NCBI GenBank assembly: GCA_014904985.1
Contig: MU128928.1
Coordinates: forward strand, 18,527-82,526
Direction: 5' to 3'
Origin: Hydnum rufescens UP504
Taxonomy: Eukaryota; Basidiomycota; Agaricomycetes; Cantharellales; Hydnaceae
Length of the DNA: 64,000 nt
The notes below the pieces were generated by a model, which was given only the letters and a program-made list of their open reading frames with translations, was not told the origin of the DNA and made no database searches. The translations under genes and the position numbers were made by a program. Shown here piece after piece: positions 1,290 to 42,706 of this stretch (position 1 is the first letter of the stretch; each line of letters starts with the position of its first letter).

Positions 1290-2040
1290 TGGAATGGAAA
1301 GGAGCTGCTGCTGGCACTAAATGTCAGTAGCTGCATGCTGATATAGCAGCTGATTATTGGTCATTATAAGAGCTGCTGGCTCTCAGAGGTGCTGGAAGCA
1401 CAGCCACATATTGGCTCAGCAGAGCTTATGAGCAGCTCTTTGGATGTTATATCAGCTGCTATAGAAGTCATAGGAGCTGCTGGCTCTGAATCTCAGCAGC
1501 TGCATACCATATAGCAGCTGATTACTGTTCATTATTGGAGCTGCTCATTCTCAATATACCAGCAGCTGCTAGGAGCACAGCCACATACCAGCTTTTCTGA
1601 TGATATATCAGCTGCTATAGAAGTCATAGGAGCTGCTGGCTCTGAATCTCAGCAGCTGCATGCCATATGGCACCTGATTACTGTTCATTATAGGAGCTGC
1701 TCATTCTCAATATACCAGCAGCTGCTAGGAGCACAGCCACATACCAGCTTTTCTGATGATATATCAGCTACTTTGGGATGGATAGGAGGTGCTGACTCTG
1801 AGTCTTAGTAGCTGCATGGGCACATAGCAGCTGATTATTGTTCATTATAAGAGCTGCTAGCTCTGAGGGTAGCAGCTGCTGCTGTAAGCACAGCCACACA
1901 GCCACAAATCAGGACCTATGAAGAGCTCTTCTGATGATATTGCAGCTACTATAGCATGGATTGGAGCAGCTGGCTGTCAGTATGACAGCAGGTGCTAGAA
2001 GAAAGCCCTGATAGCAGCTGAGTGCTGGTGATTGCAGGAG
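1290..2040. repeat. tandem CAGCTG-rich units
   Basis: Several degenerate repeats of roughly 110-160 bp share blocks such as AGGAGCTGCTCATTCTCA, ACCAGCAGCTGCTAGGAGC and ACAGCCACATACCAGC. The clearest pair lies at about 1440-1770. The palindrome CAGCTG recurs throughout. No coding frame persists. Confidence 0.65.
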
Positions 2041-2106
2041 CTGCTGGATATCAGTGCTGGACCTCTTAGGTCCCTTCCTGTGTAGTGAAAGCCAACCTAA
2101 GAGGTC

Positions 2107-3163
2107 AAAACTTGTTTCCCTGGGCTGGAAAGTGTAGAAGACACAATCATCAATGTCGAGTGAGTGATCACCTATTGGAGCAGATCTCTGAAGTCAGCTG
2201 AAAGGAACTACTCAGTGACCGAAAGGGAAGCTCTGGGAGTTAAGGAAGCACTAGTGCAATTCCAACTGTTTATCAAAGGTGAAAAGAACATAGTGATCAC
2301 AGATCACGCGGCCCTACAGTGGGCCCAAACCTACGAGAATGCCAACAGGCGTCTTGCGGCGTGGGGGGCAGTGTTCGCAGCGTACCCAGGCTTGGATATA
2401 GTACATTGAGCAGGAGTCATACACTCGAACGTAGATCCGCTCTCCAGGCTGCGACAAATCCCGCCACATCAATCGCCTGTTGAAGACAACTCCCCGGCTT
2501 TACCAAGCCAACTCCCTGTGCAACCCCTATTCGCGTGGGGAGACGTTGTAGAAAGGAGACCAGCAGAATGAGCAGCATTTCTATCGACATGAGCACAGGC
2601 CAAAAGGAGGTTGGAAGGGATACCTCCAACAACAGCAGATGAGCTAGAAGTAGCAGCGAGGTGGAGGGGTAAGACGTCCAATCCCCCTGGTTGAGAATGG
2701 ATGCCCTGGACACTGGATATTTCCATCAGCCCCACATGAACAGAAGCCTTCGTTCAAGGATATCAGGACGATCCCAGCTTCAAGCAGCCATGGAAGGAAG
2801 CCGTCGACAACAAAGAGGAGCTTTCAGCAGCACAACGCTTCTATCGATCAGAGGAGGGCCTTCTCATCTTCCACGACGCCAATTGGGTTGCCTGCTTATG
2901 CGTACCCAAGTCAGAGGTGAGGAAAATAATCCAAGATTCTCATGAGTCGCCCTGGGAAGCAGCACACACAGGGTCCTCCAGGCTGTTTCACAAGCTAGCC
3001 ATGAGATTTTACTGGCCCAGAATGTGGGCTGACATTGTAGAATTTACAAGAACATGCGACGTCTGCCAAAAGACCAAGTCAGACAAATGTGGCCCTGTGG
3101 GAAAGCTACACCCCCACGTGATCCCGCTGCTTCCATTTGAAGTAGTTACGACTAGATCTGATT
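2107..3163 (+). pseudogene. Ty3/gypsy chromovirus RNase H 3' part and integrase zinc-binding domain
   Basis: From about 2140 a frame resumes the RNase H: YWSRSLKSAERNYSVTEREA, then ITDHAALQWAQT and a final SNVDPLSRL motif near 2450. The linker to integrase (2470-2900) carries several stop codons. Near 2940-3070 the integrase HHCC zinc-binding motif is visible, with His in HESPWEAAHTG and Cys in CDVCQKTK. Around 3150-3163 an apparent extra base shifts the frame just where the integrase core begins. The order RNase H, HHCC, DDE core, chromodomain fits chromoviruses. The copy is inactive. Confidence 0.8.
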
Positions 3164-4234
3164 ATGGGCCTCCCAAAGTTGGAGGGGTTCGATGCAGTAT
3201 TAGTGATCATAGACAAGCTTACAAAGTTCATCCAGTACATCCCCACTACTTCCAACTTAAAGCAGGAGGGGTTTGCGAAGCTATTCATGCGACACCTGGT
3301 TCTGAAATACGGTATCCCCCACCAAATGATTGCCGATCAAGACGCCAGATGGGCCAAGTCTTTCTGGGTGTTGGTGGCCAAGCACTTAGACCTGGGCCTA
3401 CTGCTCTCGACTTCACATCACCCCCAAATGGATGGGCAGACCGAAAAGGCTAATGACATGCTAGAGGTAGCATTACGAGCGTATACCGCGGGCAATCGTA
3501 GCTCCTGGGCCCAGTGGCTAGGGACACTAGCGATGGCCCACAATGCTACGCCACACTCCTCCACGGGCTATTCACCCTTCTTCCTATTGCATGGGTATGC
3601 ACCACAGATGGAAGCAGTGGCAATAGACCCAGTAAAGAGAGGAATCACCCAGCTCGAGCCCAATGGCGTAGCAGCAACAGCCTTTATCAACGAGCTCGAG
3701 GTGCACCAATCCCAAGCAAGGGACACTTTAGTACGAGCCCAAGCCAGGCAAGCCAAAGCCTACAATCTTAAACAATGCAACAAGGAATTCAAAGAAGGGG
3801 ATGAGGTTCTAGTGAACCCTCATTCCTTGGAGCTAGTGGACGTACAAGGGACAGGGAGAAAGCTAGTACAATGTCACATAGGCCCTTTCCTGGTCTCAGA
3901 AAAGATCAACCCAGTAGTATATTGCCTCCAGATACCGCCTGAGTATAAGATGCACCCCGTTATAAATATACAACATCTAACGAAATACTACCACAATGAC
4001 CAGGCGGAAGAACGAGCAAAGCTCCCAGAAATGAGAGAATTAGCTGCAGAAGAAGAGTACAAAGTAGAAAGAATAGTCGGGCATCAATACAATCCACGGA
4101 AACGAAGAAGAGAGTATCTTGTAAGATGGAAGGGCTACGGGCCAGAGCACAATACCTTTGAGTCGGAACCCGGGCTGCGGAATGCTTTCTCCAGGCTCAG
4201 GGAGTATCGCAGGACCCTGGAGGAGTGTGCCTAG
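3164..4234 (+). CDS. Ty3/gypsy chromovirus integrase core and chromodomain (3' part of pol)
   Basis: A 356-codon open frame. It begins inside the integrase core just after the first catalytic Asp (DLIMGLP, in this frame upstream of the listed ATG). It carries the second acidic site in IADQDARWAKSF and the third in HHPQMDGQTEKAND. A GPY/F-like region follows (IGPFLVSEKINPVVYCLQ). The C-terminus (about residues 295-352) is a chromodomain with YKVERIVGH, REYLVRWKGYG and NTFESE. Chromodomains steer chromoviruses to heterochromatin. The first ATG is not the natural start; this is the tail of a frameshifted pol. No 3' LTR was identified before 4416. Confidence 0.85.
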   Translation: MGLPKLEGFDAVLVIIDKLTKFIQYIPTTSNLKQEGFAKLFMRHLVLKYGIPHQMIADQDARWAKSFWVLVAKHLDLGLLLSTSHHPQMDGQTEKANDMLEVALRAYTAGNRSSWAQWLGTLAMAHNATPHSSTGYSPFFLLHGYAPQMEAVAIDPVKRGITQLEPNGVAATAFINELEVHQSQARDTLVRAQARQAKAYNLKQCNKEFKEGDEVLVNPHSLELVDVQGTGRKLVQCHIGPFLVSEKINPVVYCLQIPPEYKMHPVINIQHLTKYYHNDQAEERAKLPEMRELAAEEEYKVERIVGHQYNPRKRRREYLVRWKGYGPEHNTFESEPGLRNAFSRLREYRRTLEECA

Positions 4235-4415
4235 AGTACTTGCAGACCCCACGAGGCAGCTGTGGAGCTCCCCTACCCCCATGTCCGCAACTTAAAAGCC
4301 CCTGGCTCCCTTGATCTCCTCTTCCCCACTTCCTAATTGCCTCTCTCCCCGTGTTCTCGCTTACTCCCTTTCCCAGTCCTCCCTTTACCAGCAGCTAACC
4401 CCTCCGACAGTACTT

Positions 4416-4654
4416 ATGCAGCATCCAGGCCCCAGAAGACATAAGGGCATCAGGCGAGGTTGCTGCTATGCCATGCCTGGGGAGGGTATGGATCCCTTGG
4501 ATCCCTACTATGCCCAATACAGAGACAAAGAGGATAACCCCGAAAGGTGCCCTGCCGAATACCTATCACTTGAGAGCTGCGGGTATTTTTACGTCTACAG
4601 CCTAACTACTCTGAACCTCACCGGAGCCTTTCCTCGAGTCCAGGGCCAAGCTCC
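4416..4654 (+). pseudogene. unrecognised gene, 5' part, split by the 4.5 kb foldback element
   Basis: The frame starts at ATG 4416 and runs to 4654 (79 codons plus two bases), where the foldback element begins. Removing 4655-9122 and one copy of the 7-bp duplication AAGCTCC joins this frame to the one at 9130 without a shift: the split codon is CC+A, and the protein reads ..VQGQAP then FAKDPYG... That in-frame join is strong evidence that both pieces were one gene. The N-terminal part has MDPLDPYYAQYRDKEDNP and no domain I recognise. It lies 182 bp after the chromovirus integrase, same strand; whether that matters is unclear. Confidence 0.7.
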
Positions 4655-4730
4655 CAGGCTGGTCAGTCACATAGGGGACCTAATTTAGGTACCACTTTCG
4701 GGGCAGAAAATGGTACCTAATAGGTCCCCC
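4655..4730. repeat. left TIR with internal hairpin
   Basis: CAGGCTGGTCAGTC at the tip, then a palindrome with GGGACCTAATTTAGGTACC on one side and GGTACCTAATAGGTCCC on the other around a GGGGCAG loop. Related copies lie at 22414, 38447 and, reversed, at 46386-46462. Confidence 0.85.
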
Positions 4731-4735
4731 AGACC

Positions 4736-6121
4736 TTACGGCCGAAATCAGGCTATTCCAATTCAGTTTTTGGGCCATCTATCGGCCAATCCATGGCTGT
4801 GCCAGATTATATATTTATTTATTATTATTTGTTTGCTATTTATTATTATTATTATTATTATTATATACATATTATACTATATCCATATTATCCCCCCCCC
4901 CCTGGGGTCTGCCACCACAGGGGGGGATGGTTTATTGCGGGTCATGTGCCCACATATACCCACTGTACCCTCCGCAGCAAGTGCGGTCGGGGGCCGGTTC
5001 CTTTTGGGCACTCCCTTGAGGGGTCAGTCTTCATTTGTGGGGGTTCGTTTGTAATTATCGTTCGCCATGTCTCGTTCGGCCGGTTCTGCTTGGGGGCTCA
5101 TGGGGATTCTGGTTCAGGATCTAGAGAAATAAATAATAAAATATTAGTGCAACAGTAATGCAGTGCAAAAAGAGCAGCTTATGCTGCTCTTTTTGCACCA
5201 CAACAATAAGAAATAAAAAAATAAAAGAAAACATACGTTATAGTACCCCACACCCACTGCAGCGGTGTGGGGTACTGAGGCCATGGGCTCTGGCTCGTAC
5301 GTATGTACAGTGGTTCGTATGGCAGTTCATACGGGGGCTCGCACGGGTGCCCCGTCGTTCGGGCATCGATAAGGGGAGTTACAGGGGGGGGGTTTGCGTC
5401 GGTATTCATTCACAGGGGATGTTGAAACCTACAGAATAAAACTTGTAAATTAGTTAAGAATCAAATACCACGCAAAAAGAGCAGCTTTTGCTGCTCTTTT
5501 TGCGTGGCTGTAGCTACTGGGCTGGGGACTTACCTTATATAGGACCACACACCTGCCATGGCGGGTGTGTGGTTCCTGGGACCTCATTTGGCGTGGTGCC
5601 ATATGTTGCATCATTGGCATGGTACCGTAGGTCGCGTCGTTGGCGCATTGGCGCATTGGTGTACGTCGCATCATTGGTGCAGTACTGTAGGTCACGTCAT
5701 TGGGGTGTTGGGGTGGGTTGTATCGTTGGTGCGTTGCCGTAGGTCGCGTCATTGGTGCGGTACCGTAGGTCGCGTCATTGGGGTGTTGGCGCGTATTGCA
5801 TCGTTGGCGCATTGCCATACGTCACGTTGTTTGGCATGCCTTTGCTTGGGGCATTGCCGTTTGGGCCCTCGTTTCGCGTGTTTTCATTGTGCCTTGGACC
5901 CCAGGTCTCAATCTAGAAAAATACAAAATATGTTAGTAAAAAGGTTCAAAGGGGCACAAAAAGAGCAGCGCTGCTCTTTTTGTGCTGTTGTATCTACTAG
6001 GGGAAACACTCACCTTGTGACCACACCCCCGCAGCAGCAGGTGTGTGGTTGTGTGCTTGCCTTTCCAGGCGGTTGCTTGTTTTGGTTGCGGAGATGCGAA
6101 GGAAGATACAAACTCAACACC
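4736..6121 (-). other. left arm: minus-strand exon-intron array
   Basis: Read on minus from the centre outward there are three introns. 6013-5913 (101 nt) has GTGAGT, TTTACTAACAT and TTTCTAG. 5533-5429 (105 nt) has GTAAGT, TTAACTAAT and CTGTAG. 5236-5121 (116 nt) has GTATGT, GCACTAAT and CTCTAG. Their hairpins sit at 5954-5985, 5468-5507 and 5163-5198. Each preceding exon ends in a second hairpin: 6019-6049, 5549-5573 and 5243-5275, the last with the GTACCCCACACC variant. The exon at 5534-5912 carries degenerate GTCGCGTCATTGG-like short repeats. A TTA microsatellite lies at 4830-4870. No frame survives joining the exons. Confidence 0.7.
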
Positions 6122-6210
6122 GGCAATTGCCAGTATTTAAGAAGCACCCAGTGCTGATGCTACAAGCACAGTACACATTAATAGTAAGCATGTAGATGCA
6201 AAATAAATAC

Positions 6211-6264
6211 TATATAATAAATATTTGTCCAAGAAAATTCTAAGAAGAAGAAGATAATGAGTCA
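6211..6264 (-). promoter_or_regulatory. candidate outward promoter for the left arm
   Basis: TATA-like TATATAATAA at 6211-6220 and a bZIP-type TGAGTCA site at 6258-6264, mirrored at 6596-6650. Known: TGAGTCA is the AP-1/Gcn4-class site. Inferred: promoter use. Confidence 0.4.
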
Positions 6265-6420
6265 GAGCTCAATAAGGTGTGATATGGCTAATTGCAAAGT
6301 GGATTGGGCCACTTCTATGCATCAGAATTGGCCAAAATTTGAATATATTGATGGTATATATGCACTCTACATTATATTGGACGTTCTGGGCATTTTTCAA
6401 TTTTTCATGCCTTCAATTCC

Positions 6421-6603
6421 CTAAATAGGGAATTGAAGGTGTGAAAAATTGAAAAATGCCCAGAACGTCCAATATAACTTGTTGTCCATGTAGAGTGCAT
6501 ATATACCATCAATATATTCAAATTTCGGCCAATTCTGATGCATAGAAGTGGCCCAATCCACTTTGCAATTAGCCATATCACACCTTATTGAGCTCTGACT
6601 CAT
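6421..6603 (-). CDS. small ORF in the central palindrome (doubtful)
   Basis: A 60-codon frame starting MSQSSIRCDMANCKVDWA. Similar frames occur at 44494-44685 (+), 44661-44852 (-) and, more diverged, 31960-32166 (-), which still keeps CKVDWA and an FFNF..LQFPI ending. The start ATG overlaps the TGACTCA motif. Persistence in a diverged copy hints at constraint, but a palindrome forces both arms to resemble each other and no known domain is visible. Confidence 0.25.
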   Translation of the reverse strand: MSQSSIRCDMANCKVDWATSMHQNWPKFEYIDGIYALYMDNKLYWTFWAFFNFSHLQFPI

Positions 6604-6650
6604 TATCTTCTTCTTCTTAGAATTTTCTTGGACAAATATTTATTATATAG
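6596..6650 (+). promoter_or_regulatory. candidate outward promoter for the right arm
   Basis: TGACTCA at 6596-6602, a CT-rich tract, then TATTATATAG at 6641-6650. It mirrors 6211-6264. The first plus-strand intron starts at 6852. Confidence 0.4.
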
Positions 6651-6742
6651 TATTTATTTTGCATCTACATGCTTACTATTAATGTGTACTGTGCTTGTAG
6701 CACCAGCACTTGGGCGCTTCTTGAGTATCGGCAGTTGCCAGC

Positions 6743-9047
6743 ATTGAATTTCACAACTACACAGCCACATCCTAAGGCAACACACACGACCACCACATGA
6801 CCCCATGACCCCGTGACCACACCCCCGCTGCTGTGGGTGTGTGGTCATAAGGTAAGTTTCCATTTTAGTAGGTACAACGGCGCAAAAAGAGTAGCGAAAG
6901 CTACTCTTTTTGTGCTGGTTTTAATTTCTTTACTAACAACTTTATTATTCTAGGATATGGCTTTGTCCCAGGTGCCAACAAGGAGGCCCAACCTGCCACA
7001 AATGAGGACCTGCGGAGCAAGCCCCCCAGAACAACAAAGGAGACCGGCAAACAACAATGCCAAACGAAGGGACGAACCACACACCCGCAGTAGCGGGTGT
7101 GTGGTTCTATACAAGGTATGTAATGTACCCCCGACAATGCAAAAAGAGCAGCAACAGCTGCTCTTTTTGTGTTGCTTTTATTTTTTGAACTAATAATATT
7201 TTATTCTAAGTATCGCCACAAATGAACCTGTGAAGCAAGCCAGAATGACAGCACCCCCGCAAACGATGCACCACACAAAGAGAACCACACACCCACTACT
7301 GTGTGTGTGTGGTTTTATACTCAGTATGTAATGTACCCCCGATGGTGCAAAAAGAGCAGTGAAAGCTGCTCTTTTTGCATCGTTTTTCATTTTTTAACTA
7401 ATAATTTTTCATTCTAGGTATCCTCACAAATGGTGACCCACAGAGCAAGCCCACCACACCTGCAAGGGGGACTGGCGAACGACGGCACACCACGAACCAT
7501 ACACCCACAGTAGTGGGTATGTGGTTCTATCTATGTATGTAATGCACCCCTGACAATGCAAAAAGAGCAGTGAAAGCTGCTCTTTTTGCATCGCTTTTAA
7601 TTTTTTAACTAATGATTTCTTATTCTAGGTATTGTCACAAATGGAGACCCACAAAGCAAGCCCCCCAGAATGACAACACCCCGCGAACGACGATGCACCA
7701 CATGAAGAGAACCACACACCTGCAGTAGTGGGTGTGTGGTTCTATCTATGCAAGGTATGTAACACACCCCCGACAATGCAAAAAGAGCAGTGAAAGCTGC
7801 TCTTTTTGCGTCACTTATAATTTTTTAACTAATAATTTTTTATTCTAGGTATCACCACAAGTGAAGACCTGCAAAGTGAGCCCCCCGGAACAACAACATT
7901 GCCATGAACGATGACGTGCTGAACAAAGAGACAAACCACACACCCACAGTAGCAGGTGTGTGGTTCTATACATGGTATGTAATGTAGTGCACCCCCAACG
8001 GCACAAAAAGAGCTGCAAAGGCAGCTCTTTTTGCATTGCTTTAACTTTTACTAATCTAAAATTTTGTATTCTAGATCTTCCTTCCCCCCAAATGAGTACG
8101 TGCCCGAAAACCCCCAACCCACTGTATGGAAAACCAGCAGTCAAGGGTACGTGACCCCGGGCAAAAATGAGTACCACACACCCGCCAATGCGGGTGTGTG
8201 GTATTACAAGGTATTTTTTTTAAACTTTCTACATCTACAGTGACGCCAAAGGAGCAGCGCAAGCTGCTCCTCCGGCATCACTTCGAATTTTTTTACTAAC
8301 GTACATTATCATTCCATTCTAGGATCAAATTTAAAGCTCCCAAAACGACGACAGACAGCTGCAACCCCCGAACGACCCACACAACGGTGAACCACCAAGC
8401 CACGCCCGCCCAAATGGCTACCAACAAGCCGGGCGAGCCCCCATCCCAGCCCCAAGGCAGAAATGCCCAGTACCACATAGCCCCCTCAGTGGGGTGTGGT
8501 CTTTTATTTTTATTTTTATTTTTATTTACAAGTGGTGCAAAAAGAGCAGTGATAGCTGCTCTTTTTGTGCTGCTTTGAATTTCCTCCTTACTATTTTGCC
8601 ACCTGACACCCCAGCAACATGTCCCCTGAACCTGCATCTGAACACTGGATGACCCCCCGTCCTAAGTCCCGAGGAAACAACAAACGGTACCACACACCTG
8701 CCCTAGCGGGTGTGTGGTATGTTTTTTTAATTGAATTTTTAAATAAATAAATACATTAGTTCATAAGAACAAAACACGAGACTGCCAAATGAAAACAGCC
8801 CCCACCTGGTGTATATAGTGATAATGATAATAAATAAATAACTATAAATGAAACACCAGAGGGGGGAATATAATAATAATTACTGGTGATTATCCCCGAT
8901 AAGCCCGCATGGCCCACTGTCCTGCAAGTCTGAGATTCTCTCCAAGTCCCAGTTTCAGCCAATTTTCGGCCAATTTTCGGCCATTTTGGCCAATTCTGGG
9001 CCAGGAGGTGAAATCATAAAAATGGCCATTTTGGCCAGAATAGTGAT
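6743..9047 (+). other. right arm: plus-strand exon-intron array
   Basis: Seven introns: 6852-6953 (102 nt, GTAAGT/TTTACTAAC/TTCTAG), 7116-7210 (95), 7324-7417 (94), 7535-7628 (94), 7755-7848 (94), 7975-8074 (100) and 8211-8322 (112). Most have GTATGT, AACTAAT or TACTAAC/T, and TTCTAG; 7116-7210 ends CTAAG. Intronic hairpins: 6880-6915, 7138-7171, 7346-7381, 7556-7591, 7775-7811, 8003-8037, 8242-8279. Exon-end hairpins: 6817-6846, 7075-7106, 7283-7313, 7493-7526, 7708-7743, 7932-7966, 8172-8204. A further hairpin pair at 8476-8568 and one at 8688-8720 lack clear splice sites. The middle units repeat every 208-220 bp. The first full exon (6954-7115) is open for 54 codons; the later ones hit stops in all frames, so coding is unlikely. 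Confidence 0.7.
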
Positions 9048-9122
9048 GGGACCTACTTAGGTACCATTATCTGCCCCGGAAGTGGTACCTAACTAGGTAG
9101 GCTTAGATGACTGACCAAGGTG
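9048..9122. repeat. right TIR with internal hairpin
   Basis: GGGACCTACTTAGGTACC and GGTACCTAACTAGGTAGG flank a CTGCCCCGG loop; the tip is GACTGACCAAGGTG. Reversed relatives lie at 32317, 36538 and 39930. GGCCAATTTTCGGCC-type short repeats (8950-9000) lie just inside. Confidence 0.85.
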
Positions 9123-10258
9123 AAGCTCCATTTGCTAAAGATCCCTATGGCTACAGATGGGAGCACTTGGATGAATGGGGACGGCTGGGAAAGTTCAAAT
9201 GGACATATCACACCCAGTTGCTTCCTAAGAACTTCCCCTTCCCATTGCACCGTGCCTTCATTCCCTTCGACATCAGCCAGTTCAACTTCGACCCTCACAT
9301 TCACCTCCTCCAAGCACGGGGGCCAAACCCTCAACTTTGCTCCCTGTCGATCAAATTCTTGAATGATGCCCGGGACGCTAGCCACGTGATGCTGCACTGT
9401 ATTAGACATATAGACCAGATTACGAGCCGATTTCACATCCTCCTTCCCTCTGCCTATGATCAGGACTGGCATTTCGGCTCTATGTGGATGTATCTCCTAC
9501 AGCAGGGATTGACCCCAGCCCCAGCTTGGAAAGCCATCCACGTCGCCCAGGAGATTCGAAGGAGAGTACTCAACACGACAGGGTTCACCAATATGGCCTT
9601 CCACGTCATATTATACCTCATCTGCTTCAAGGAACAGCTCCACCCTCTGCAGTTCTGGACGACCATATGTCTCGCGTGGCTCATCATATCAAAACAGGAT
9701 GCCTGCTCCCAACTCATCAGTGAGGGGCTTGCGCAATTAGGAGTCCTGGTATGGGCGATGGAAATTGAGAACAAGAACCCTCCCCTTGAGCTTCTTCCCA
9801 GGGGGATGACTCAGAACTCGCCCTTGTGGATTTCGGCTGAACGGGAGATCCGTGAAAAGCACCCCTCCTGGAGAATGATGGACTCGTACCCCTGCAAGGT
9901 TGTTCAGGAGAAATTCAAGCAGAATGTCCGAGAGCAGTTCTCTCATCGTTTGGTGAGCCCACCTGAATATGCATGGGTGATGAAGAAAAACCACCCGTGG
10001 GAAACGAGGCACCCTGGTCCTTACTACTGCCATCATCCAGCCTACTTCCACAAAGCCAAGGGCCCGCCTGGTGAAGTCTACCTGGAGGGGCTGCTCCGAT
10101 GGCTGTCGCAAATCCAGGAAGGCAACTATCTGCCAGTACTGAAGGAGCTGCAGGAATGCCTGGGGGAGGAGACATTGCCTCTGACCAAGTGGGCCAATCA
10201 TGAATTCTCTCCTCCCCCCCCTGGCCTTCCTCCACCAGAATTATCCGATGTGTCATGA
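9123..10258 (+). pseudogene. unrecognised gene, middle part
   Basis: Continues the frame interrupted at 4654 (codons from 9131: FAKDPYGYRWEHLDEWG). The ATG at 9107 lies inside the transposon TIR and is not the original start. Joined to 4416-4654 the frame gives 455 codons to a TGA at 10258. The protein is rich in Trp, His and Pro, with no domain I recognise and no clear signal peptide. The frame probably slips in the C-run at about 10210-10222, because the alternative frame continues with a plausible protein. It may be an Agaricomycete orphan family. Confidence 0.6.
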
Positions 10259-12900: not shown

Positions 12901-15900
12901 CTACTTCACAATCAATTCTTGACATTGTGCCCACTGTATACCACACTTAAAGTGCTGAAAATCAATCTGGGTCTTGTTGGGATTTCCCATCATGAGAGAG
13001 TTAGGGTGCTCCAGGGATGTGCGGTAGGCAACAGGGATCCAGAGAATACACTCATTATTGAGTCCCAAAATCCATCCATCATCAAGCTGAAAGGGGCAGG
13101 GTGGGAGTGGGAATAGATGGACAGGGTATTGGAGGATGTGCTTGGACACTGCAGCAGCCAGCTGTGAAATTTCAACAGCATTGTTCTCAGAGCCACCTGC
13201 AGTCCACCTGCCATGAGGTGAAAAAGCAGTGGACAAGATTCCACCATCATCTCCCTTCATTGGCTGGCCACCTGACTCTACATCCCAGAGTTGTATGGTC
13301 TTATCTGAGGAGCCAGATGCAATCTGCTGGCCATCAGGTGAGAAAGCAACAGACAAAACAGCATGATCATGTCCCTCCATTGGCTGGCCAATGTTTGCAC
13401 CTGTCTCCACATTCCAGAGTTGAATGGTCTTGTCTCCAGACCCAGAAGCAATCTTCCTGCCATCAGGTGAGAAAGCAATGGACAAGACAGCATCATCATG
13501 CCCCTCCATTGGCTGGCCAAGACTCACACCTGTCTCCACATCCCAGAGTTGTATGGTCTTGTCCAATGAGCCAGAAGCAATCCACTGGCCATCAGGTGAG
13601 AAAGCAACAGACAAAACAGCATGATCATGTCCCTCCATTGGCTGGCCAATGTTTGCACCTGTCTCCACATTCCAGAGTCGAATGGTCTTGTCTTCAGACC
13701 CAGAAGCAATCTTCCTGCCATCAGGTGAGAAAGCAATGGACAAAATAGCATGACCATGACCCTTCATTGGCCCACCAATGCTCACACCCATCTCCACATC
13801 CCAGAGTCGTATAGTCTCATCCAAGGAGCCAGAAGCAATCTTCCTGCCATCTGGTGAGAAGGCAATGGATGAGACAGCACCATCATGCCCCTCCATTGGC
13901 TGGCCAATGCTCACACCCATCCTTACATCCCAGAGTTGGACAGCCTTGTCCAAGGAGCCAGAAGCAATTTGCTTCCCATCAGGTGAGAAAGCAATGGACA
14001 AGATGGCATCATGCCCATCCATTGGCTGGCCAATGCTTGCACCTGTCTCCACATTCCAGAATTGGATGGTCTTGTCTGATGAGCCAGAAGCAATCTGCTT
14101 GCCATCAGGTGAGAAAGCAACAGATAGTACATCTTTATGATGTCCTTCTAAGATATTTGGCCAGTGCTGAAGTCGTCCCCGTGCAAGTCTTGCAACTCCT
14201 GGAAATTGGCTTTGCCACCTCTGATATAGGAGGGATGATGCAGGAGCAAATGTCAGGCCAGAGAGGTAGATGTGAGGTGTGCTTGTTGCAATGGCAGTTG
14301 CAAACATGGAGATGAATTGCATAGCATCCTGTTGCAGCTCAGCAAGGCCCACAGGAATCTGGGGAACACATGTTTTGGATCAGCCCACAGCTTCTGTGTG
14401 TTCCCAAATTAGAACCATGCTCACATGAGAGGTATTAAGTGAGGCTAATGCAATTTGAGGGGAGCTCTGGGTAAGGCTCATCACTTCCAACCAGTACAGA
14501 AAATGTTTCTGGAAGAATGACTCCAAGGGTTTCTGAGGAAACTTGCCAGCACGCAGTGCAGACACATGGACACTCCAGAATCGACAAGCATAATACAGAT
14601 GATGAGGGATGTATTTTTCCTGGAGATACTTAATGTAGGGGATGTCAATATTGCGAAGGAATGACGTTGGGATTTGACAGATATTGAAGCTCAAGGTCTG
14701 GTCCATCACGTGAAAGCACCCCAGGGCCATGTGTTCATTTGCTTCGTTTTTGTCGATGTAGAAATCTTTGTTACGCTCCGGGTTACACATGAAATCACGA
14801 TAAGACGAGTGGAAAGGCACAATTGGCTCATGGTCACTGTGTGTCCCACTAAGAAGCGAGGCGAGAGACTTCACAATGCTTCGCTGGATCTCCATGTCAT
14901 TCGGGTCATCCGGAGTGAGGATAGAGTCAGGTGGAACTAGGTGCACCAGGGCATGCAACGACAGAGGCTCCTGAGCGCATATAATTCGGCCTAGGATTGA
15001 CTTGACTTGCTTTACTGCTATCTCGTTGTATCGACCCCAGTGCTCTTTCATGATGGTGCTATAGAGCGGGTACAGCCCTTCATCACCATGCAGCACCGTC
15101 GCAATCCTTTCCCGCGGGCCGATGCCGGCTTCACCATCCCCACGAATGAAGCGGCAGGCAGTAGCAGCCCACAGAAAAGATGTTCCGGCCATCTGAATGA
15201 GATCCCTTAGCTGGGTACGATACTTTTCTCGGAGTACATTCACGTGACGTAGGGCATTGTGTATAAAGATTGCAATGTCGCGCGAGGTCTGATAAGTCGG
15301 GATATCATCTACAAGGATGATGTCAACCCCGGGCGGTAGCGGAGACTGCAATGCACTTTGAACATCGGGCTCATATCTCGAAGTGACTACGACTCGAAGA
15401 CCAGGTGGGAGTTCTGATGCTCGCTTTGTTAGAATAGCGAGTGCGTCCGCACGATCCAAAACGTCCCCAGATTCGTCGAATGCGTCGATGAAAACCGCAG
15501 TCACCCCAAGGGCCTTATCATCCTCGAATGGTGCAATGATAAAGTGTTGGAACTGCAGTTTGCAGTCAGGGGTTGTTCGTATCGCGGCGTCATTCTTGAC
15601 AGCATCGACCAGGCGTTGCTTCCGGGAGTTGTCGAGGTCGGTGAGGTCTCGAGCGATCGTACTGAACAGGTTGGTTAGGTTTGCGAGGGGTTTATTTTTG
15701 TCGAAGCCATAGTATGACCCCATGCGGTCAAGCTCAGAAATGCGTTTCGCGCATGAGCGAAGGATCGAGGATTTCCCCGAACCCGCGGGGCCACAGAGCC
15801 AAAGTATACGAGACGATTCATTAGAGTTCAATATTATCGAGCCACTTGAATCAGACGATGCCGTGTCTGCTCCAACGACCCAGTGTACTATAGCGTCGAT

Positions 15901-17389
15901 GATTTCAGTACGCGTACCTGGAAAGCACGCTTTATCCAGATCGTGATGGGCCTGTGGGGCGTATTTTAGTTCATTGAGCACTTGCAAGTCCCCTGAGGAC
16001 CATCTTAGAACGCAGGTTTTGACCGAAGACATGCAAGAAGCACTTACGGACTTCGGTCACGACATCTAAGACGCGATGCGTAATGACGGAGGATTGTATG
16101 TTCGCATGATCAATCAGATTCCGTCGGAGAGTTTCCAGGATCGTCGTGTAGTTATCGATCCGTGCGTCCACATGAGAAACCGTGTACTTTACAGTGCGTT
16201 TGACTGTGCCCCCTCCTGATCAGTCTTGGAGTAGTAGAACACGCAGGATTCTCCATACCGAACGACTTGTCTCTGCTATAATCCCGAATGAAATGGGCAC
16301 ATTCCATTACTTGGTGTAATATTTGGTTGATGATATCTTGATCTCTTTCCGAGCGTTTCTTCAATTCCTCGGGTTCATCAGCAAAAGAGCAGCTATCCGC
16401 CATAGCCTGGACTAAACGCATCACTTTGGCATCTTGGGCAGAAGCAATCTAACAGAACACGGGTCAGAGAACATACAGATACAAAAGTTGATTCTAGTCG
16501 CACCATATACGCTGCTGAGGCAACCCCCCACGTTAACTTGATCCAAGGGTGAGCCTGTTCGTAAAATATTTCTTAACGGTCGCGTGGCGCAGGCAATTCA
16601 GGATGAAACGTACCTCGGCCAGGATATCAGCAACTTTCACAAGAGCGGCAAGGCGACTCAACAAAGGCTGCCAAGCATTGAACTGGGCTGTGATTTCTGT
16701 TACAAGTGGGGTGGTAGGTTGAATGGCGTTGTTGACCGCGGCTAGTCTGGGACCAAGCTGCTCGGCAACCTCACGAGTGGATGCGAGAGAGGATGTGACA
16801 CATATTGTTAATTCTCCGAGTTTGTTGTTCGTGTCACCCTTCAGATCGAGGCATATCTCTGCTGGGATAGAGGCCGCGCGTGAGCGTGGCCCAATCTCCA
16901 CATAAACATCAGCAGCTTCACCTTTGTCTGTCGCGGAGGAGAGATCCAAAGTACACGATGCGACGGCTCGCGACAAACGTCCAAAACGGCGCTCGCGCAA
17001 ATCTATAGTCACTCTGCAATCGATAGGCGTTCGAGTTCGAGTCACCACCGTGCTGCCGAGGGAATGTGAATAAGGGCGACGAAATATGTGCGCATGAACT
17101 AGACCTACAACTCCTCCCCGAAGGGATCCTTCCACGTCATGACCTCATGTGTTGCCCGGAGGTAGGCTGACTTTGGCGAACGCAGCCCAATGACGGTGGC
17201 AGGAGGCTCAATGATGAAGTGAAGGCGATAGCGTTTCGATGTATGTAGAAAGTGACTGCTACATCTGGCCTCTGTTGCGAGGACCAAATAGGCTTGTTGG
17301 ATGCGAATTGTTGGTCTGTAAGTGGATAGCATACCTGAGATATGAACTTGGCGCATGTCCGCTGGGTTCAGCGGGTCTTTGGATACCAT
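12901..17389 (-). CDS. NACHT-WD40 NLR-like protein (STAND receptor), 7 exons, about 1380 aa
   Basis: Six introns join in phase: 17053-17108, 16555-16613, 16449-16503, 16204-16258, 15993-16047 and 14359-14424, each 55-66 nt with GT..AG. The coding total is 4143 nt. ATG at 17389. An N-terminal region of about 370 aa comes first. The NACHT NTPase follows, with P-loop GPAGSGKSS (about 15770), Walker B VFIDAFDES (about 15490) and VVVTSRYEPD. Seven to eight WD40 repeats (13150-14160) with SPDGKQIASGS and DKTIQLWDVE are very alike at DNA level. The end LDDGWILGLNNE..WIPVAYRTS matches the usual tail of fungal WD40 NLRs. Known: such proteins (HET-E/NWD class) sense non-self and may trigger cell death. 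It looks intact. It is head-to-head with the NLR at 18021. Confidence 0.85.
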
Positions 17390-18020: not shown

Positions 18021-21000
18021 ATGACATGTTTCAGGCACGGATCCAGGTTTATCATCAGCGGAATATACCGGTCCGGTTCCGAGATTGACGCGCTTAGAGT
18101 CCATGCAGATTGCGGGGTATATCGGATTGAACGATACCGCCTTCGTATCTCCACCCTCGACGCAGGCGAGTGGATCCTTCCAACTGATCCTGGTATTGTC
18201 AAGGGTGGGGCACACTTGTTGATCACGATGCAACACATTACACACAATATCACTCTCAGTACTATCAGTGAGTTACTTTTCAATCTCTCCTCCGGTCCTC
18301 CCCCTCACCAGTGCTTGTCCTCAGCCACTGGCCATGGGGGTCATGGGGAAAACGGCGGTACTGGTGGTCGTGCGGGGGATATCTATTTCGGTTCTGGTAA
18401 TAGTCAACCCCCCCCCTCGATACCTGGAATCCTTGCCCATAATCAATGCTCTTCCAGGCGGGACTTCCCTTTTAATGGCTCTTCCTCACGCTCCATATGC
18501 GGCCCACGACTCTTTCCGCGAGGATGCACCATCCTCATGTCTAGTGGGCACACGTGTTGCTGTATTGGAGGAAATTTCCACGTGGTCAGAGAGTGCGAAT
18601 GGTGAAAGGCCACCTATATACTGGCTTAACGGAGTCGCTGGCATCGGTAAATCGACCATCGCGAAAACCGTCGCAGAACGAGCGCAAGAGAAACGCATGC
18701 TAGGCGCGACTTTCTTTTTTTCTCGGAAGAAGGAGTCTCTATGGGATCCAGCCCTCGTACTACCGACCCTCGCTTTCCAACTTGCCCAATCAGATGATGC
18801 GTTCAGGAACGTCATAGTGGATGCCATCGAACGAGATTCGGAAGCCGGACGAAAGACACTGTTGTCTCAGCTTCAGAAATTAATCCTGTCGCCCCTACTC
18901 ACTATCGATCCCCGTCGGAGCCCAATACTTATCGTCCTTGATGCCCTCGACGAGTGCGAGGAAAATGGTGCTACTAATATTTTGGAACTCATGTTTACAC
19001 ACCTCATCCGAATACCTTTCCTACGGATCTTAATCACAAGCCGTCCACAACCTCACCTATCCTCCGTATTCAACAAGGCATCGAGCCTGGCGGAGACAGC
19101 TCTTCACGATATCGACGCCTCAGTCGTTGACCAAGACATCCGCTTGTACATCTCTACCGAACTGGCCAAAATTCCAAGGAAACTTGGTCTTGACATGCCT
19201 ACTGATTGGGCGACGGAGGCGGAGAAGAATGCCCTGGACACCCTGGTAAAGAAGTCCGGGAAGTTATTCGTTTACGCAGCAGTGGTGATCGGCTTCATTG
19301 GGGACGGTTGGGTGCGAGATCCTCAATTTCAACTAGGGCTCATCCTTAACACCTGGTCCCTCAAACAAGCCCAGGCGAAACCTTATTCGCCCCTGGACAA
19401 GCTCTACATGGAAGTGCTTCGCAAGTCGCTTTCTCCATTTAATCATCAAGAGATTCTGAAACGGTTTCAAACCGTCGTCGGGAGCATCGTGCTGTTGCGG
19501 GAACTCCTCCCGCTCCCTTCATTGGCTGTGTTTGTTTGCTACACAACGCACGTCGTCGAGGAGAGTTTGCGCCATTTTCACTCAGTCATCATCCCCCCCT
19601 CTAATAACCAGCCCCCTCGTATCTACCACCCTTCATTTCTCGAGTTTATTACCGATCCTTCGCGCTGTTCCATGAGGGAATTTGTGATTGTTGCTGTGCC
19701 AGAGCAGGAACTGCGGCATGCTATCCGATGCTTCGAACTCATGGCGAAACATCTAAAACGGGACATCGCCGGGATCTCGGATCCATCTCTGCTGAACAGG
19801 GAAGTCGATGGATTTAAGGAGAAAGTGAGAGAGGCGCTATCACCGGAGGTCCAGTATGCATGTCGGCACTGGGCATCCCATCTACGGTGCGTGGAGATTG
19901 GGGAGGGGAGTATAATGAGGGCACTGGAGACATTCTTGACGCAGTCAGTTTTATGGTGGTTCGAAGCAATGAGTCTGCTTGAGAGTATCTCGAATGCTCC
20001 AAGCTCGATTGAAGTGGCTCACCGCTGGGCGGTATGTGTATTCCTTCTCGATCCTCGATGCAGTGACTGAATAGGGAACGACTGTAATTATAGGACAGTT
20101 CGAGATGCAAGCCGAGTGTTGTAAGAATTCTGTCCGATTCCCATCGATTCATTCTCGCACATCGGGATGTGATAAGATCGAGTGCACTGCATGTGTACCA
20201 TTCTGCATTGCCTTTCACAGCACATGACACTATGCTATACAAGACATATACTGGAGATGGAAAGAATTCTATTCAGGTTCTCCAAGGCATGGAGTCCAAA
20301 TTGCCACGGCACTTGGGTGCTTTACATGCCCATTCTGACACAGTTACAACTGTTGCATTTTCCCCCGACGGATTGTGCCTGGCATCAGGCTCCAGTGATT
20401 ATACTCTGCGGTTGTGGGATCCCAAAACAGGCATATCCATCAAAACACTGAAAGGCCATTCTGGTTCGGTTAGGACCATTGCATTTTCCCTTGATGGATT
20501 GTGCCTGGCATCAGGCTCCAATGATTATTCTCTGCGATTGTGGGACCCCAAGACAGGCAGATTGATCAAAACACTGGAAGGCCATTCTGGTTCAGTTAGA
20601 ACCACTGCATTTTCCCCTGATGGGTTGCACCTGGCATCAGGCTCTGATGATTATACTCTGCGACTCTGGGATCCCAAGATGGGCATATGCATCAAAACAA
20701 TGAAAAACCATCATGGTTCGGTTAGGACCATTGCATTTTCCCCCAGGCCTGATGGATTGTACCTAGCATCAGTCTCTGATGATCATACTCTGCAATTGTG
20801 GGATGGCATGTCTGGTGTATTCATCAGAAGATTGGAACATGATTCTCATCAACTTTGGGAACTTGGATTTTCCTTTTATCATGATACTCCAATTCCACAC
20901 CCAGAGACCTTGACTGCCCAACCCCTGCATCACCTACCATCTGTAATAACTCCTAAGCCATCTGTGGCCATGACTCCACTCATCTGGCAATGTGAAGGTC

Positions 21001-21410
21001 ATTGGATACAAGTGATGCAGCAACAAGAGGGCTATGCCCGACGAATATGTTACATCCCAGAAGATCACCTAACCAGCACTGAGATTGCTGTGTCAAGCCA
21101 GGAAACATACTCTCAACTTGCAGTTGGATGCTATAATGGTCACATGATCATTCTTGTTGTTCCACATGACCTGTTTCCTTGGAGCTTCAGCAAGGAACCA
21201 GCTGATACCCAACTGATGCCCACTGTTACATGTCCACATACACCTCTCATGAGCAGCACCTTTCCCATGAATGATGACCCCCCTCTCCCAACTCATGGCA
21301 CTGGTCAAAGGCATGCCTGGAGCCTCCCCAGACTCTTCAGGCATGGGGCAGATATCTTGGCTAGGGTAGTGACTGTAAAGACTCAGTCTGGGGGAGGGTA
21401 CAAGGGCTAG
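18021..21410 (+). CDS. NACHT-WD40 NLR-like protein (STAND receptor), 3 exons, about 1088 aa
   Basis: Exons 18021-18396, 18458-20031 and 20094-21410 join in phase. The introns are 61 and 62 nt, with GTAATA..TTCCAG and GTATGT..TTATAG. A glycine-rich segment (HGGHGENGGTGG) precedes the NACHT module. NACHT motifs: P-loop GVAGIGKST (about 18630), Walker B LIVLDALDEC (about 18930), ITSRPQP (about 19035). A linker typical of fungal NLRs (DSHRFILAHRDVIRSS) leads to four WD40 repeats (about 20320-20830; SPDGLCLASGS, LRLWDPKTG). The tail RRICYIPEDH..LAVGCYNGHMI resembles the end of such proteins. An in-frame TAG at 18003 supports this start, though an upstream exon is possible. Likely role: allorecognition or immunity receptor. 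Confidence 0.85.
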
Positions 21411-32316: not shown

Positions 32317-35300
32317 CACCTTGGTCAGTCATCTAAGCCTACCTAGTTAGGTACCACTTCCGGGGCAGATAATGGTACCTAAGTAGGTCCCATCACTATT
32401 CCAGCCAAAATGGCCATTTTTATGATTTCACCTCCTGGCCCAGAATTGGCCAAAATGGCCAAAAATTGGCCGAAACTGGGACTTGAAGAGAATCTCAGAC
32501 TTGCAGGACAGCGGGCCATGTGGGCTTATCAGGGATAATCACCAGTAATTATTATTATATTCCCCCCTCTGGTGTTTCATTTATAGTTATTTATTTATTA
32601 TCATTATCACTATATACACCAGGTGGGGGCTGTTTTCATTTGGCAGTCTCGTGTTTTGTTCTTATGAACTAATGTATTTATTTATTTAAAAATTCAATTA
32701 AAAAAACATACCACACACCCACTGTGGAAGATAAAAACATCCAGTATCAGAAAATGCGAATATCCATTGATCCCAGCCATTGGAATGATCATGTGACCTA
32801 TTATGAAATCAATTACAGCTATGCACAGAAATCGAATTCGTTCTATAACTCCGTCAGTTTTGATCGGAGAGGTACGCCCATATAACTCTCGGAAAGCCAC
32901 GATTCATACCTTTCGAATGGTACCAAACACAAGTCAAACGGACCAGAAATGCACTCTCCAGACCAATATTACTGTCAAAATCCGGGATTTTCAGTAAAAA
33001 ACGAATTTCTCCGTCAGTTCACATTCAATCCTCTCAGAACAACCGCGCCTGGAAAGATATAAAAAGTTCGCATCCAATGGTACTGAGCACGCGAAGAACA
33101 GATCAAAACTGAACTCTACAGAATGATATTACTATCAGAATAAACACCCATCAGTAAAAAATGAATTTCTCTGTCAGTTTACACCGGATCTGCTCGGAAC
33201 CACCGCGCCCAGAAATCTGTTAAAACTCCGCATCGAATGATACCAAGAACGTCTATTACGGATGTAAACTGTTGTTTCTGCATCGAATCCCATCCCATGC
33301 ACTTGTCCCCATTATCAACCAGCAACAAAAACATCTTAACCACTGGACTACTAACAAATTAATCTCCAAGAACTCGGAAATATCCTTTGATTTCATCTCC
33401 CATTGCCACAAATAACTTCTAGAACCTCACAGATAAGAAAGATAACACTCCCTTGACTACCCTTTTGTTCTGTTTATGAATGACTCGCCCTCCTTGCAAC
33501 CACTTTATGAAAGATAACACCTCTTAGCAACCCTTTTGTTCTGTTTATGAATGACTCACCTATCTTGCAACCACTTTATGAATGACTCACCTATCATGCA
33601 ACCACTTTATGAATGACTCACCCTCCTTGACAACCCTATTGTTCTCACATATGACTCACCTAGGAGTGAGTCATATTCTTTAAACACAGCCACCTTCAGA
33701 AAGGTATAAAAGCTGGTAGATTTTCCTGTATCCCCCCATCATCTTCTCACTACTGGAATATACTACTGTCTACAAATCTGCTTGCATCTTAAGAGAGTAC
33801 TGATCTAAAGCCATCTGAAGCTAAGTCATATACAAGGTTGTTAAGACTAAGTCACTGGAAGCCCTCTACGCGAAATACTGAGCCAAGGATAGTTGCAGGA
33901 CCTAAGGTTAGAGTTGCTGGACATCCAAGGAAAGGTGAGTAAAAACAAAGTTAAGTCAGAAGAAGAAAGAAACACTTTGACATACTAGATCAAGCTTAAA
34001 CTAGTCTAGAGTCCTCTTTAGAATCCGCATTTTGACCAGGAGGACACAAAATAGGTACCCACAAATAGCAGTAAACAGTTCAATACAACACGTATAAGCC
34101 TTTCACAAGCATCCCATGATATATCATTGACTATAGCTAGTCCATACCACAATCTTATCCTCCACTGAATACCATATCTAACTTGTTAGAGAGTGATCAA
34201 CCATCAGAGCGAACCAGCCCATTGAATAAAAACAGAAATACAGTCTCCCATCTACACACTGGCTGAACCAGAGTTTGATTTGACAGTCATCGGAGCTCCC
34301 AATCCTTCTTCTATACTGCTAGGGCAGGTGTGTGGTACCGTTTGTTGTTTCCTCAGGACTTAGGATGGGGGGTCATCCGGTGTTCAGATGCGGGTTCAGG
34401 GGACATGTTGCTGGGGTGTCAGGCAGCAAAATAGTAAGGAGGAAATTCAAAGCAGCGCAAAAAGAGCAGCTATCACTGCTCTTTTTGTGCCACTTGCAAA
34501 TAAAAATAAAAATAAAAATAAAAGACCACACCCGCTGAGGGGGCTATGTGGTACTGGGCATTTCTGCCTTGGGGCTGGGATGGGGGCTCGCCTGGCTCGT
34601 TGGTAGCCATTTGGGCGGCATGGCCTGGTGGTTCACCATTGTGTGGGTCGTTCGGGGGTTGCGGCTGTCTGTTGTCGTTTTGGGAGCTTTAAATTTGATC
34701 CTAGAATGGAATGATAACATATGTTAGTAAAAAAATTCGAAGTGACGCTGGAGGAGCAGCTTGTGCTGCTCCTTTGGTGTCACTGTAGATGTAGAAAGTT
34801 AAAAAAAAATACCTTGTAATACCACACACCCGCATTGGCGGGTGTGTGGTACTCATTTTTGCCCAGGGTCATGTACCCTTGACTGCTGGTTTTCCATACA
34901 GTGGGTTGGGGGTTTTCGGGCACGTACTCGTTTGGGGGGAAGGAAGATCTAGAATCCAAAATTTTAGATTAGTAAAAGTTAAAGCAACGCAAAAAGAGCT
35001 GCCTTTGCAGCTCTTTTTGCGCCATTGGGGGTGCACTACATTACATACCTTGTATAGAACCACACACCCGCTACTGCAGGTGTGTGGTTCATCTCTTTGT
35101 TCGGTGCGTTGTCATTCACGGCGATGTTGTCATTCCAGGGGGCTTGCTTTGCGGGTCTTCACTTGTGGTGATACCTAGAATAAAAAATTATTAGTTAAAA
35201 AATTATAAGCGACGCAAAAAGAGCAGCGAAAGCTGCTCTTTTTGCATCGTCGGGGGTGTGTTACATACCTTGCATAGATAGAACCACACACCCACTACTG

Positions 35301-36537
35301 CAGGTGTGTGGTTCTCTTCATGTGGTGCGTCGTCGTTCGCGGGGGTGTTGTCATTCTGGGGGGCTTGCTTCGCGGGTCTCCATTTGTGACAATACCTAGA
35401 ATAAGAAATCATTAGTTAAAAAATTAAAAGTGATGCAAAAAGAGCAGCTTTCGCTGCTCTTTTTGTGTTGTTGGGGGTGCATTACATACATAGATAGAAC
35501 CACACACCCGCTACTGCGGGTGTGTGGTTCGTGGTGTGCTGTTGTTCGCCAGTCCCCCTTGCGGGCATGGTGGGCTTGCTCCATGGGTCGCCATTTGTGA
35601 GGATACCTAGAATGAAAAATTATTGGTTAAAAAATGAAAAACGATGCAAAAAGAGCAGCTTTCACTGCTCTTTTTGCACCGTTGGGGGTACATTACATAC
35701 CGAGTATAAAACCACACACCTGCAGTAGTGGGTGTGTGGTTCTCTTCATGTGGTGCATCGTTTGCGGGGGTGCTGTCATTCTGGCTTGCTTCATGAGTTC
35801 ATTTGTGGCGATACCTAGAATAAAATATTATTAGTTCAAAAAATAAAAGCAACACAAAAAGAGCAGCTGTTGCTGCTCTTTTTGCGTTGTTGGGGGTACA
35901 TTACATACCTTGTATAGAACCACACACCCGCTACTGCGGGTGTGTGGTTCGTCCCTTCGTTTGGCATTGTTGTTTGCGGTCTCCTTTGTTGTTCTGGGGG
36001 CTTGCTCCGCAGGTCCTCATTTGTGGCAGGTCAGGCCTCCTTGTTGGCACCTGGGACAAAGCCATATCCTAGAATAATAAAGTTGTTAGTAAAGAAATTA
36101 AAACCAGTGCAAAAAGAGTAGCTTTCACTACTCTTTTTGCGCTGTTGTACCTACTAAAATGGAAACTTACCTTATGACCACACACTGGCAGCAGCGGGGG
36201 TGTGGTCGCGGGGTCGCGGGGTCATGTGGTGGTCATGTGTGTCGCCTTAGGATGTGGCTGCGTAGTTGCGAAATTCAATGCTGGCAACTGCCAATACTCA
36301 AGAAGCGCCCAAGTGCTGGCACTACAAGCACAGTACACATTAATAGTAAGCATGTAGATGCAAAATAAATACTATATAATAAATATTTGTCCAAGAAAAT
36401 TCTAAGAAGAAGAAGATAATGAGTCAGAGCTCAATAAGGTGTGATATGGCTAATTGCAAAGTGGATTGGGCCACTTCTATGCATCAGAATTGGCCAAAAT
36501 TTGAATATATTGATGGTATATATGCACTGTACATGGA
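32317..36537. mobile_element. foldback copy D: reversed right half, interrupted by repeat X
   Basis: Begins with the right TIR reversed (CACCTTGGTCAGTC). After the X insertion it runs through the whole right arm in reverse. Intronic hairpins: 34457, 34744, 34988, 35214, 35433, 35643, 35853 and 36107 (starts). Introns on minus match the intact copy in length, for example 36069-36170 (102 nt) and 34701-34812 (112 nt). It ends inside the central palindrome at 36537, where the next TIR begins. Confidence 0.75.
32722..34318 (+). mobile_element. repeat X copy 4 (about 1.6 kb, LTR-like)
   Basis: Starts TGTGGAAGATAAAAAC and ends CTTCTTCTATACTG. Holds GGTATAAAAGCTGG at 33703 and AATAAA at 34225, in the order expected of an LTR promoter and polyadenylation signal. 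A tRNA-like pair lies on minus near 33268-33352. It splits the exon-end hairpin whose halves are at about 32709-32721 and 34319-34336. Confidence 0.6.
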
Positions 36538-36620
36538 CACCTTGGTCAGTCATCTAAGCCTACCCAATTAGGTACCACTTCCAGGGACAGATAATGGACC
36601 TAACATGGTCCCATCACTAT
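36538..36620. repeat. isolated right TIR (reversed) of the foldback family
   Basis: CACCTTGGTCAGTCATCTAAG followed by a decayed form of the TIR hairpin (ATAATGGACC where other copies have ATAATGGTACC). Sequence beyond about 36680 no longer matches the family. Confidence 0.65.
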
Positions 36621-37963: not shown

Positions 37964-38088
37964 AACTTGACTTGATTCGACTCGACTTGACTTGACTTGA
38001 CTCGGCTTGACTTGACTTGACTTGACTTGACTTGACTCGACTTGACTTGACTTGACTCAACTTGACTTGACTCAACTTGACTCAGTTG
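37964..38088. repeat. CTTGA pentamer microsatellite
   Basis: Tandem CTTGA with CTCGA and CTCAA variants over about 125 bp. Confidence 0.9.
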
Positions 38089-42681: not shown

Positions 42682-42706
42682 NNNNNNNNNNNNNNNNNNN
42701 NNNNNN
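42682..42706. other. assembly gap (25 N)
   Basis: 25 consecutive N at the point where the central palindrome of the reversed foldback copy is interrupted. Confidence 0.99.

Follow-up and report, generated by a model that had tools for sequence, protein, structure and literature searches.

We analysed a stretch of 64,000 nucleotides of contig MU128928.1 of the fungus Hydnum rufescens UP504 (hereafter the window) and found a complete foldback element, to which no overall strand is assigned, at positions 4655–9122. The element reads CAGGCTGGTCAG...CTGACCAAGGTG, with terminal motifs CAGGC at 4655 and AGGTG ending at 9122, as also read in the copies that we fetched from the genome. It is flanked by a 7-bp target duplication, AAGCTCC (4648–4654 and 9123–9129, plus strand). 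The terminal inverted repeats are found at 4655–4720 and 9057–9122 (both given on the plus strand), and 4660–4720 pairs with 9057–9117 at 80% complementarity. A palindrome occupies the centre of the element (6147–6713). Its arms, 6147–6372 and 6488–6713, are 99% identical, and with the inner part included, 284 columns match at 94%. An earlier sequence-only reading had described a foldback element at this place, which the inverted ends, central palindrome and 7-bp duplication confirm.

Copies of the element, a search for which had been proposed along with that description, are abundant in the Hydnum rufescens UP504 genome (63.2 Mb in 539 contigs). Allowing up to three mismatches, 222 left ends and 335 right ends were detected genome-wide, with none in the reversed-pattern control. 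When two mismatches at most are allowed, the hairpin carried by the introns described below (hairpin A) is present at 5,174 sites, again with a reversed control of 0. A query with the 1.26-kb core gave 289 genomic matches, from 40 scored among 1,663 candidates. The termini of the fetched copies match CAGGCTGGTCAG...CTGACCAAGGTG apart from small differences: the left ends are CAGGC, with one CAGCC, and the right ends are AGGTG, with one copy (L037) a base short. The terminal 98 nt at 9020–9117 are conserved as well, with 25/1078 positions changed versus 408/7437 across the other, unmarked sequence of the right part. Further copies are present in the window, one of them on the minus strand at 32317–46464. 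Close to the centre of its palindrome, this copy is broken by nested insertions of about 8 kb (~36.5–44.5 kb), which contain more copies or fragments of the element and include an N run at 42682–42706.

Ten introns run outward from the palindrome, three on the minus strand of the left arm and seven on the plus strand of the right arm, and each contains a hairpin A. This is the arrangement given by the sequence-only reading; two of the ten introns are weak. They have GT donors, CTAAC or CTAAT branch sites and, in all but one, TAG ends. In the right arm, with hairpin position and folding z-score in brackets, they are intron 1 at 6852–6953 (6883–6912; −5.6), intron 2 at 7116–7209 (7140–7169), intron 3 at 7324–7417 (7348–7377; −6.5), intron 4 at 7535–7628 (7559–7588; −4.2), intron 5 at 7755–7848 (7779–7808; −5.7), intron 6 at 7975–8074 (8004–8033; −3.5) and intron 7 at 8211–8322 (near 8247–8276). 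The left arm has intron 1 at 5913–6013, intron 2 at 5429–5533 and intron 3 at 5121–5236, where the stretches 5914–6012, 5428–5532 and 5128–5233 fold with z-scores of −4.2, −7.2 and −6.2. The scores of these three stretches and of the five scored right-arm introns range from −3.5 to −7.2. An automatic finder returned two introns in the left arm and six in the right, giving the last of the six a wrong donor; the intron at 7116, the donor at 8211 and the intron at 5913–6013 were placed by reading the sequence. The acceptor of the 7116–7209 intron is CTAAG rather than CTAG in this copy of the element, and the donor at 8211, GTATTT, is weak and was read by eye, the finder having chosen the same end with another donor. 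A second type, hairpin B, is exonic. One precedes intron 1 (6816–6845, plus strand), and others are found at 5544–5573, 7076–7105, 7284–7313, 7496–7525, 7711–7740, 7935–7964, 8173–8202 and 8689–8718. An orphan hairpin A at 8538–8567 (plus strand) has no recognisable intron and no donor, and serves as a natural control.

We then investigated the hairpins of the fetched loci, which partly overlap; this affects the hairpin and neighbour-orientation counts here and the palindrome-arm counts below. A donor, a branch site and an acceptor on one strand accompany 366 of 522 fetched hairpins, as against 98 of 2,610 hairpins given mononucleotide-shuffled flanks, and both strands carry full intron motifs in 4 of the 522. 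Neighbouring full introns at most 1.6 kb apart form 247 same-strand, 29 divergent and 2 convergent pairs. From 435 distinct units, 313 were kept above a score cut and 122 dropped, so the following tallies lean toward the consensus: 259 of the 313 donors are GTATGT, GTAAGT or GTGAGT, 289 branch sites are CTAAT or CTAAC, and 197 acceptors are TTCTAG. A second foldback, unlike the first in sequence, was noticed at 43730–44480 of the window. Its two divergent introns flank a palindrome of its own and carry a similar hairpin, AAAGAGCTGC..GCAGCTCTTT; its inverted arms are at most 71 nt long, the best being 65 nt at 100%.

To measure constraint, the core at 6816–8074 was compared with eight close copies of 92–94% identity and with five divergent copies of 81–84%. 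In the close copies, the splice signals are changed at about 1.7% of positions overall (donor 5/288, branch 4/239, acceptor tract 8/480), the remainder of the introns at 146/2127 and the remainder of the exons at 338/3983 (8.5%). The stem of hairpin A is changed at 1/1151 positions, its closing pair at 20/95 and its loop at 26/192, and hairpin B has 103/1151 changes in the stem and 1/285 in the centre. The divergent copies show a like order of rates with a smaller contrast: A stem 16/719, donor 11/179, branch 11/150, acceptor tract 30/296, intron remainder 260/1308, exon remainder 552/2416, B stem 73/716 and B centre 47/172. Ten of these 16 A-stem changes are one paired double change common to all five copies. 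Compared with the exons, the A stem is almost 100 times less variable in the close copies and about 10 times in the divergent ones. Of the cells compared, 47 of 48 in the close copies and 34 of 36 in six more divergent copies retain the acceptor AG. The orphan hairpin was followed in ten copies. Its stem has 4/240 changes versus 1/1151 in the intronic stems (Fisher p = 0.004), and the tract downstream of it, which is not conserved, has 23/220 versus 18/1022 in introns (p = 2e-8), in tests that treat related copies as independent.

It would be difficult to account for this conservation of signals and stems, together with the orphan contrast, if the introns were not spliced. By these comparisons the splice signals are under purifying selection, and splicing is supported by this selection. 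The exons appear to be fast-evolving spacers, and the most constrained sequence appears to be the 12-bp stem in each intron. Since no part varies less than the A stem, and the single A stem that lies outside an intron is under weaker constraint, the intron hairpin may be the selected product, a conclusion with moderate support. Alternatively, splicing itself might be the function: introns near a promoter would raise expression or mask the transcript as non-foreign, and hairpin A would merely shorten the intron, an intron of about 94 nt less a 40-nt hairpin leaving roughly 50–55 nt, an efficiently spliced length. The conserved donor, branch and acceptor tract agree with this, as does the distance of 22 or 23 nt between hairpin and branch site in 220 of the 313 units. 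However, a structural role needs no invariant sequence, as the mostly paired B stem, with its 103/1151 changes against 1/1151 in the A stem, illustrates. We regard this explanation as unlikely.

The exons had been read as keeping no reading frame, and the insertions and deletions bear this out. None of the 47 exon indels shorter than 60 nt in the eight close copies is a multiple of three, and 22 of 168 short exon indels are so in six more divergent copies. An intact protein shared across the joined exons was sought in 48 arms of copies and none was found; there is no conserved open reading frame (ORF), as the spliced open stretches vary among these arms, the longest reaching 245 aa in one of the 48 and the next 180 aa. 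A public gene model of 212 aa, BS47DRAFT_1365468, overlies the exons of another copy. Among its six introns, the second is exactly the counterpart of 7975–8074, one shares the acceptor that matches 8322, and the others differ; one of the differing calls leaves a hairpin as coding sequence. The two agreements count in favour of the explanation that we prefer below. The model would suit a degenerate protein-coding gene, a reading to which we give next to no credence: frame-breaking indels dominate, the open stretches differ between copies, and the model itself retains a hairpin as coding sequence. Copying through RNA was also considered and rejected, since a spliced-junction pattern, tried for one junction, gave 0 matches versus 166 for the intact exon–intron pattern at equal settings.

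The spliced exons could also be the product, as a scaffold RNA in which paired B hairpins stand between U-poor linkers. The base composition agrees with this, with 5–20% T in exons versus 29–50% in introns in both arms of the 4655–9122 element and of copy L057. In addition, the B hairpins remain paired through changes on both sides, and on the sense strand G.U outnumbers A.C by 133 to 90 (p = 0.005, with related copies counted as independent). On the other hand, the linkers (338/3983) and the B stems (103/1151) are among the fastest-changing parts, which makes such a scaffold improbable. Tandem repeats of about 26 bp lie in a left-arm exon, at 5579–5827 of the window. In copies L057 (~2240–2390) and L058 (~1680–4590), CAG/CAA repeats are found where the right arm is near its start, those of L058 containing a long N run. 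Near its right end, L057 has five consecutive B hairpins and no A hairpins (3971–4285).

We then investigated the central palindrome, which is a putative bidirectional promoter. GGCCCAATCCAC is the 12-mer with the highest conservation (98%) among 28 distinct arms, and AAATATTTATTA and ATTCTGATGCAT come next, each at 96%. GGCCCAATCCAC and AAATATTTATTA follow each other outward at a distance of about 80 nt. We take GGCCCAATCCAC, at 6550–6561 on the plus strand, to be a CCAAT-like block and AAATATTTATTATATA, at 6634–6649 on the plus strand, to be a TATA-like block, both rightward; the first 12 bases of the latter are conserved at 96% in the 28 arms and the last four less. Their leftward mirrors, read from the sequence, are at 6299–6310 (CCAAT-like) and 6211–6226 (TATA-like) on the minus strand. 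This outward order of CCAAT- and TATA-like blocks suggests a bidirectional promoter. The two arms within one copy are 93–100% identical in 32 of the 36 pairs that gave a value (a further pair gave none), with the other four at 77–84%, and the arms of other copies are only 71–98% identical to the arm of the 4655–9122 element. The higher identity within copies than between them indicates that the two arms of a copy are homogenised, with conversion or template switching as the presumed cause.

The sequence-only reading had proposed that one bidirectional promoter makes two long, multiply spliced noncoding RNAs. The selected splice signals, the lack of a frame and the promoter-like blocks lend this proposal support at the level of sequence. 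It had gone on to suggest that the two RNAs are partly complementary and could feed RNA silencing. The near-perfect central palindrome is in keeping with that idea. However, if transcription starts past the TATA-like blocks, most of the palindrome would lie upstream of both start sites and outside the RNAs, and the sequence common to both RNAs would then be only short hairpins and introns of about 80% similarity. As both hairpin types are palindromic on each strand, they tell us little on whether the two RNAs would pair with each other. We consider a role in silencing of this kind highly improbable.

The KDZ and Plavaka matches listed all lie outside the window, and no transposase was found in the element. 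In L058, a longer copy, a run of N occupies the place where a transposase might be encoded. Genome-wide, KDZ matches number at least 154 and Plavaka matches 57. One element with KDZ and CxC1 (L059) begins with CAGGCTGGTCAG, its first 12 bases being identical to the left end of the foldback element. The left boundary of L059, 1934, was set independently: most copies start at 1931–1934, and copies of the surrounding retroelement stop at 1934–1938. The shared left end suggests that a KDZ (Kyakuja-type) transposase probably moves the element. Kyakuja elements are characterised in excerpts of PMC12730594 by 7-bp duplications, CA..TG ends and a lack of terminal inverted repeats, and CA..TG termini are present in the foldback element. 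We therefore name as the probable mover a KDZ transposase of Kyakuja type, the Kyakuja label being taken from the end features, and the element would be a non-autonomous transposon. Plavaka was rejected as the mover, since the same source describes it with duplications of 2 or 3 bp and other termini (PMC12730594).

The explanation that we favour, and hold with even confidence, is that of a non-autonomous KDZ transposon with two inside-out noncoding genes, in which the selected part is the intron hairpin. A KDZ (Kyakuja-type) transposase would act on the element in trans. The central palindrome would drive two divergent noncoding transcription units as a bidirectional promoter, and each transcript would be spliced several times. 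These units would resemble inside-out host genes, whose function would be the delivery of intron-borne hairpin RNAs. The sequence itself establishes the boundaries, the number of copies, the outward direction of the introns, the constraint on splice signals and on intronic stems, the lack of a frame and the homogenised palindrome. Transcription, splicing, mobilisation and the excised hairpin as product are all steps that we infer from it, with good support for the bidirectional promoter, the two spliced noncoding RNAs and KDZ mobilisation. More tentatively, and with less than even confidence, the element may represent a class of transposons that have mirrored noncoding inside-out genes as their sole conserved cargo, and whose thousands of hairpin introns are amplified as RNAs that aid their spread, perhaps through an effect on silencing, on splicing or on the mobilising transposase.

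Several observations weigh against the explanation by intron hairpins and a KDZ transposase. The terminal comparison with the autonomous KDZ element covers the left end only. The 7-bp duplication is matched at 7/7 in two of seven copies with both ends, and at 0–2/7 in the other five; 42 mismatched left–right pairs reach at most 4/7, and for the five this suggests that copies have recombined with each other or that ends were falsely paired. The relaxed-constraint control is one orphan site, whose stem (4/240) varies less, even so, than the sequence around it (209/4119). A search of 4600–9200 against Rfam gave no match over the gathering score, including the C/D and H/ACA classes. Hairpins A and B both contain several pair types beyond the seed used for finding them. 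The sense strand has G.U 43 times versus A.C 36 times in hairpin A (p = 0.5). G.U is not clearly favoured, and this count would also suit a palindromic DNA site. The loop of hairpin A is purine-rich, with GNRA in 131 of 294 loops and its reverse complement in 6. However, among 90 listed loops that are one change from GAAA, GNRA is kept in 24, versus one third expected (counted by hand). We rejected selection for a GNRA tetraloop, since the one-step variants show no such preference and ancestry can explain 131 versus 6.

Hairpin A could be a DNA site, made of two half-sites and a free 4-nt spacer, for an accessory protein of the transposase or for a host factor, with splicing keeping transcription of the array tolerable. 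CACTA elements carry subterminal binding arrays. The free spacer (26/192) between nearly invariant half-sites is consistent with this, as are the lack of a G.U excess over A.C, the loops inverted in some single copies and the residual conservation at the orphan. Such a site, however, predicts no difference between orphan and intronic hairpins, whereas 4/240 and 1/1151 were seen, and the splice signals would need a separate reason. We rate a DNA site as quite unlikely.

On both sides the foldback element is abutted by ORFs (4296–4688 and 9107–10258), and it may have interrupted a gene. The right ORF, 9107–10258, and 4413–4688 of the left one have no match in Pfam. The ORF at 3146–4234, just left of the element, encodes a Tf2-1-like SH3 together with a chromodomain and is retrotransposon-like. 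Farther to the right, the ORFs at 12901–16056 and 18223–21410 appear NACHT-/WD40-like, and 18223–20070 belongs to a large Hydnum family. A NACHT ORF of the window matches a Hydnum rufescens UP504 protein at 100% identity over 85% of its length.

The usual view is that a non-autonomous transposon requires nothing beyond its ends. In the foldback element, selection keeps splice signals and an intronic hairpin and lets the exons drift, so that the splicing of noncoding RNA appears to matter to the success of the transposon. The element makes it testable whether transposons spread by way of intron-derived RNAs or of splicing, and a single genome with 5,174 hairpin sites offers a large natural dataset on the requirements of fungal introns.

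Drosophila Foldback (FB) elements resemble this element in their long inverted arms of tandem palindrome-rich units; we know of no intron arrays in FB arms. UHG is an inside-out gene, and the two arms of the element are likewise built of constrained introns and much less constrained exons with no frame. The likeness extends to small nucleolar RNA (snoRNA) host genes of the UHG/gas5 type as outlined in parts of PMC2780460, in having several introns, short ORFs and a constrained part once per intron. Fungal snoRNA clusters, including those of Neurospora, also have host genes of low coding potential and an intronic product in that account (PMC2780460). In contrast to these host genes, the foldback element has no Rfam snoRNA match, is transposon-borne, and presents its units in divergent pairs and in many copies. 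Introner-like elements, sister stwintrons and introners are likewise repeated spliceosomal introns, symmetrical in the fungal cases, but as excerpts of PMC8469720, PMC4457414 and PMC9860276 describe them, they are single introns gained in genes, whereas the element in the window holds arrays of introns with noncoding exons inside one DNA element. An introner-like element was therefore rejected: the introns form arrays within one bounded element and are not single introns in protein-coding genes. We recognised no described precedent for mirrored arrays of selected noncoding introns in the open-access literature, which is no proof of their absence. The closest relation by termini is to Kyakuja and the KDZ group (Pfam PF18758; PMC12730594, in excerpt), with CA..TG ends, a 7-bp duplication in two of seven copies and 12 left bases in common with a KDZ and CxC1 element. 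The foldback element differs in having terminal inverted repeats, which Kyakuja-1_LB and -2_LB reportedly lack (PMC12730594), in containing no transposase that we found, and in its cargo of noncoding introns. As a transposon, it is a probable non-autonomous member of the KDZ group, and its novelty lies in the mirrored cargo of selected noncoding introns.

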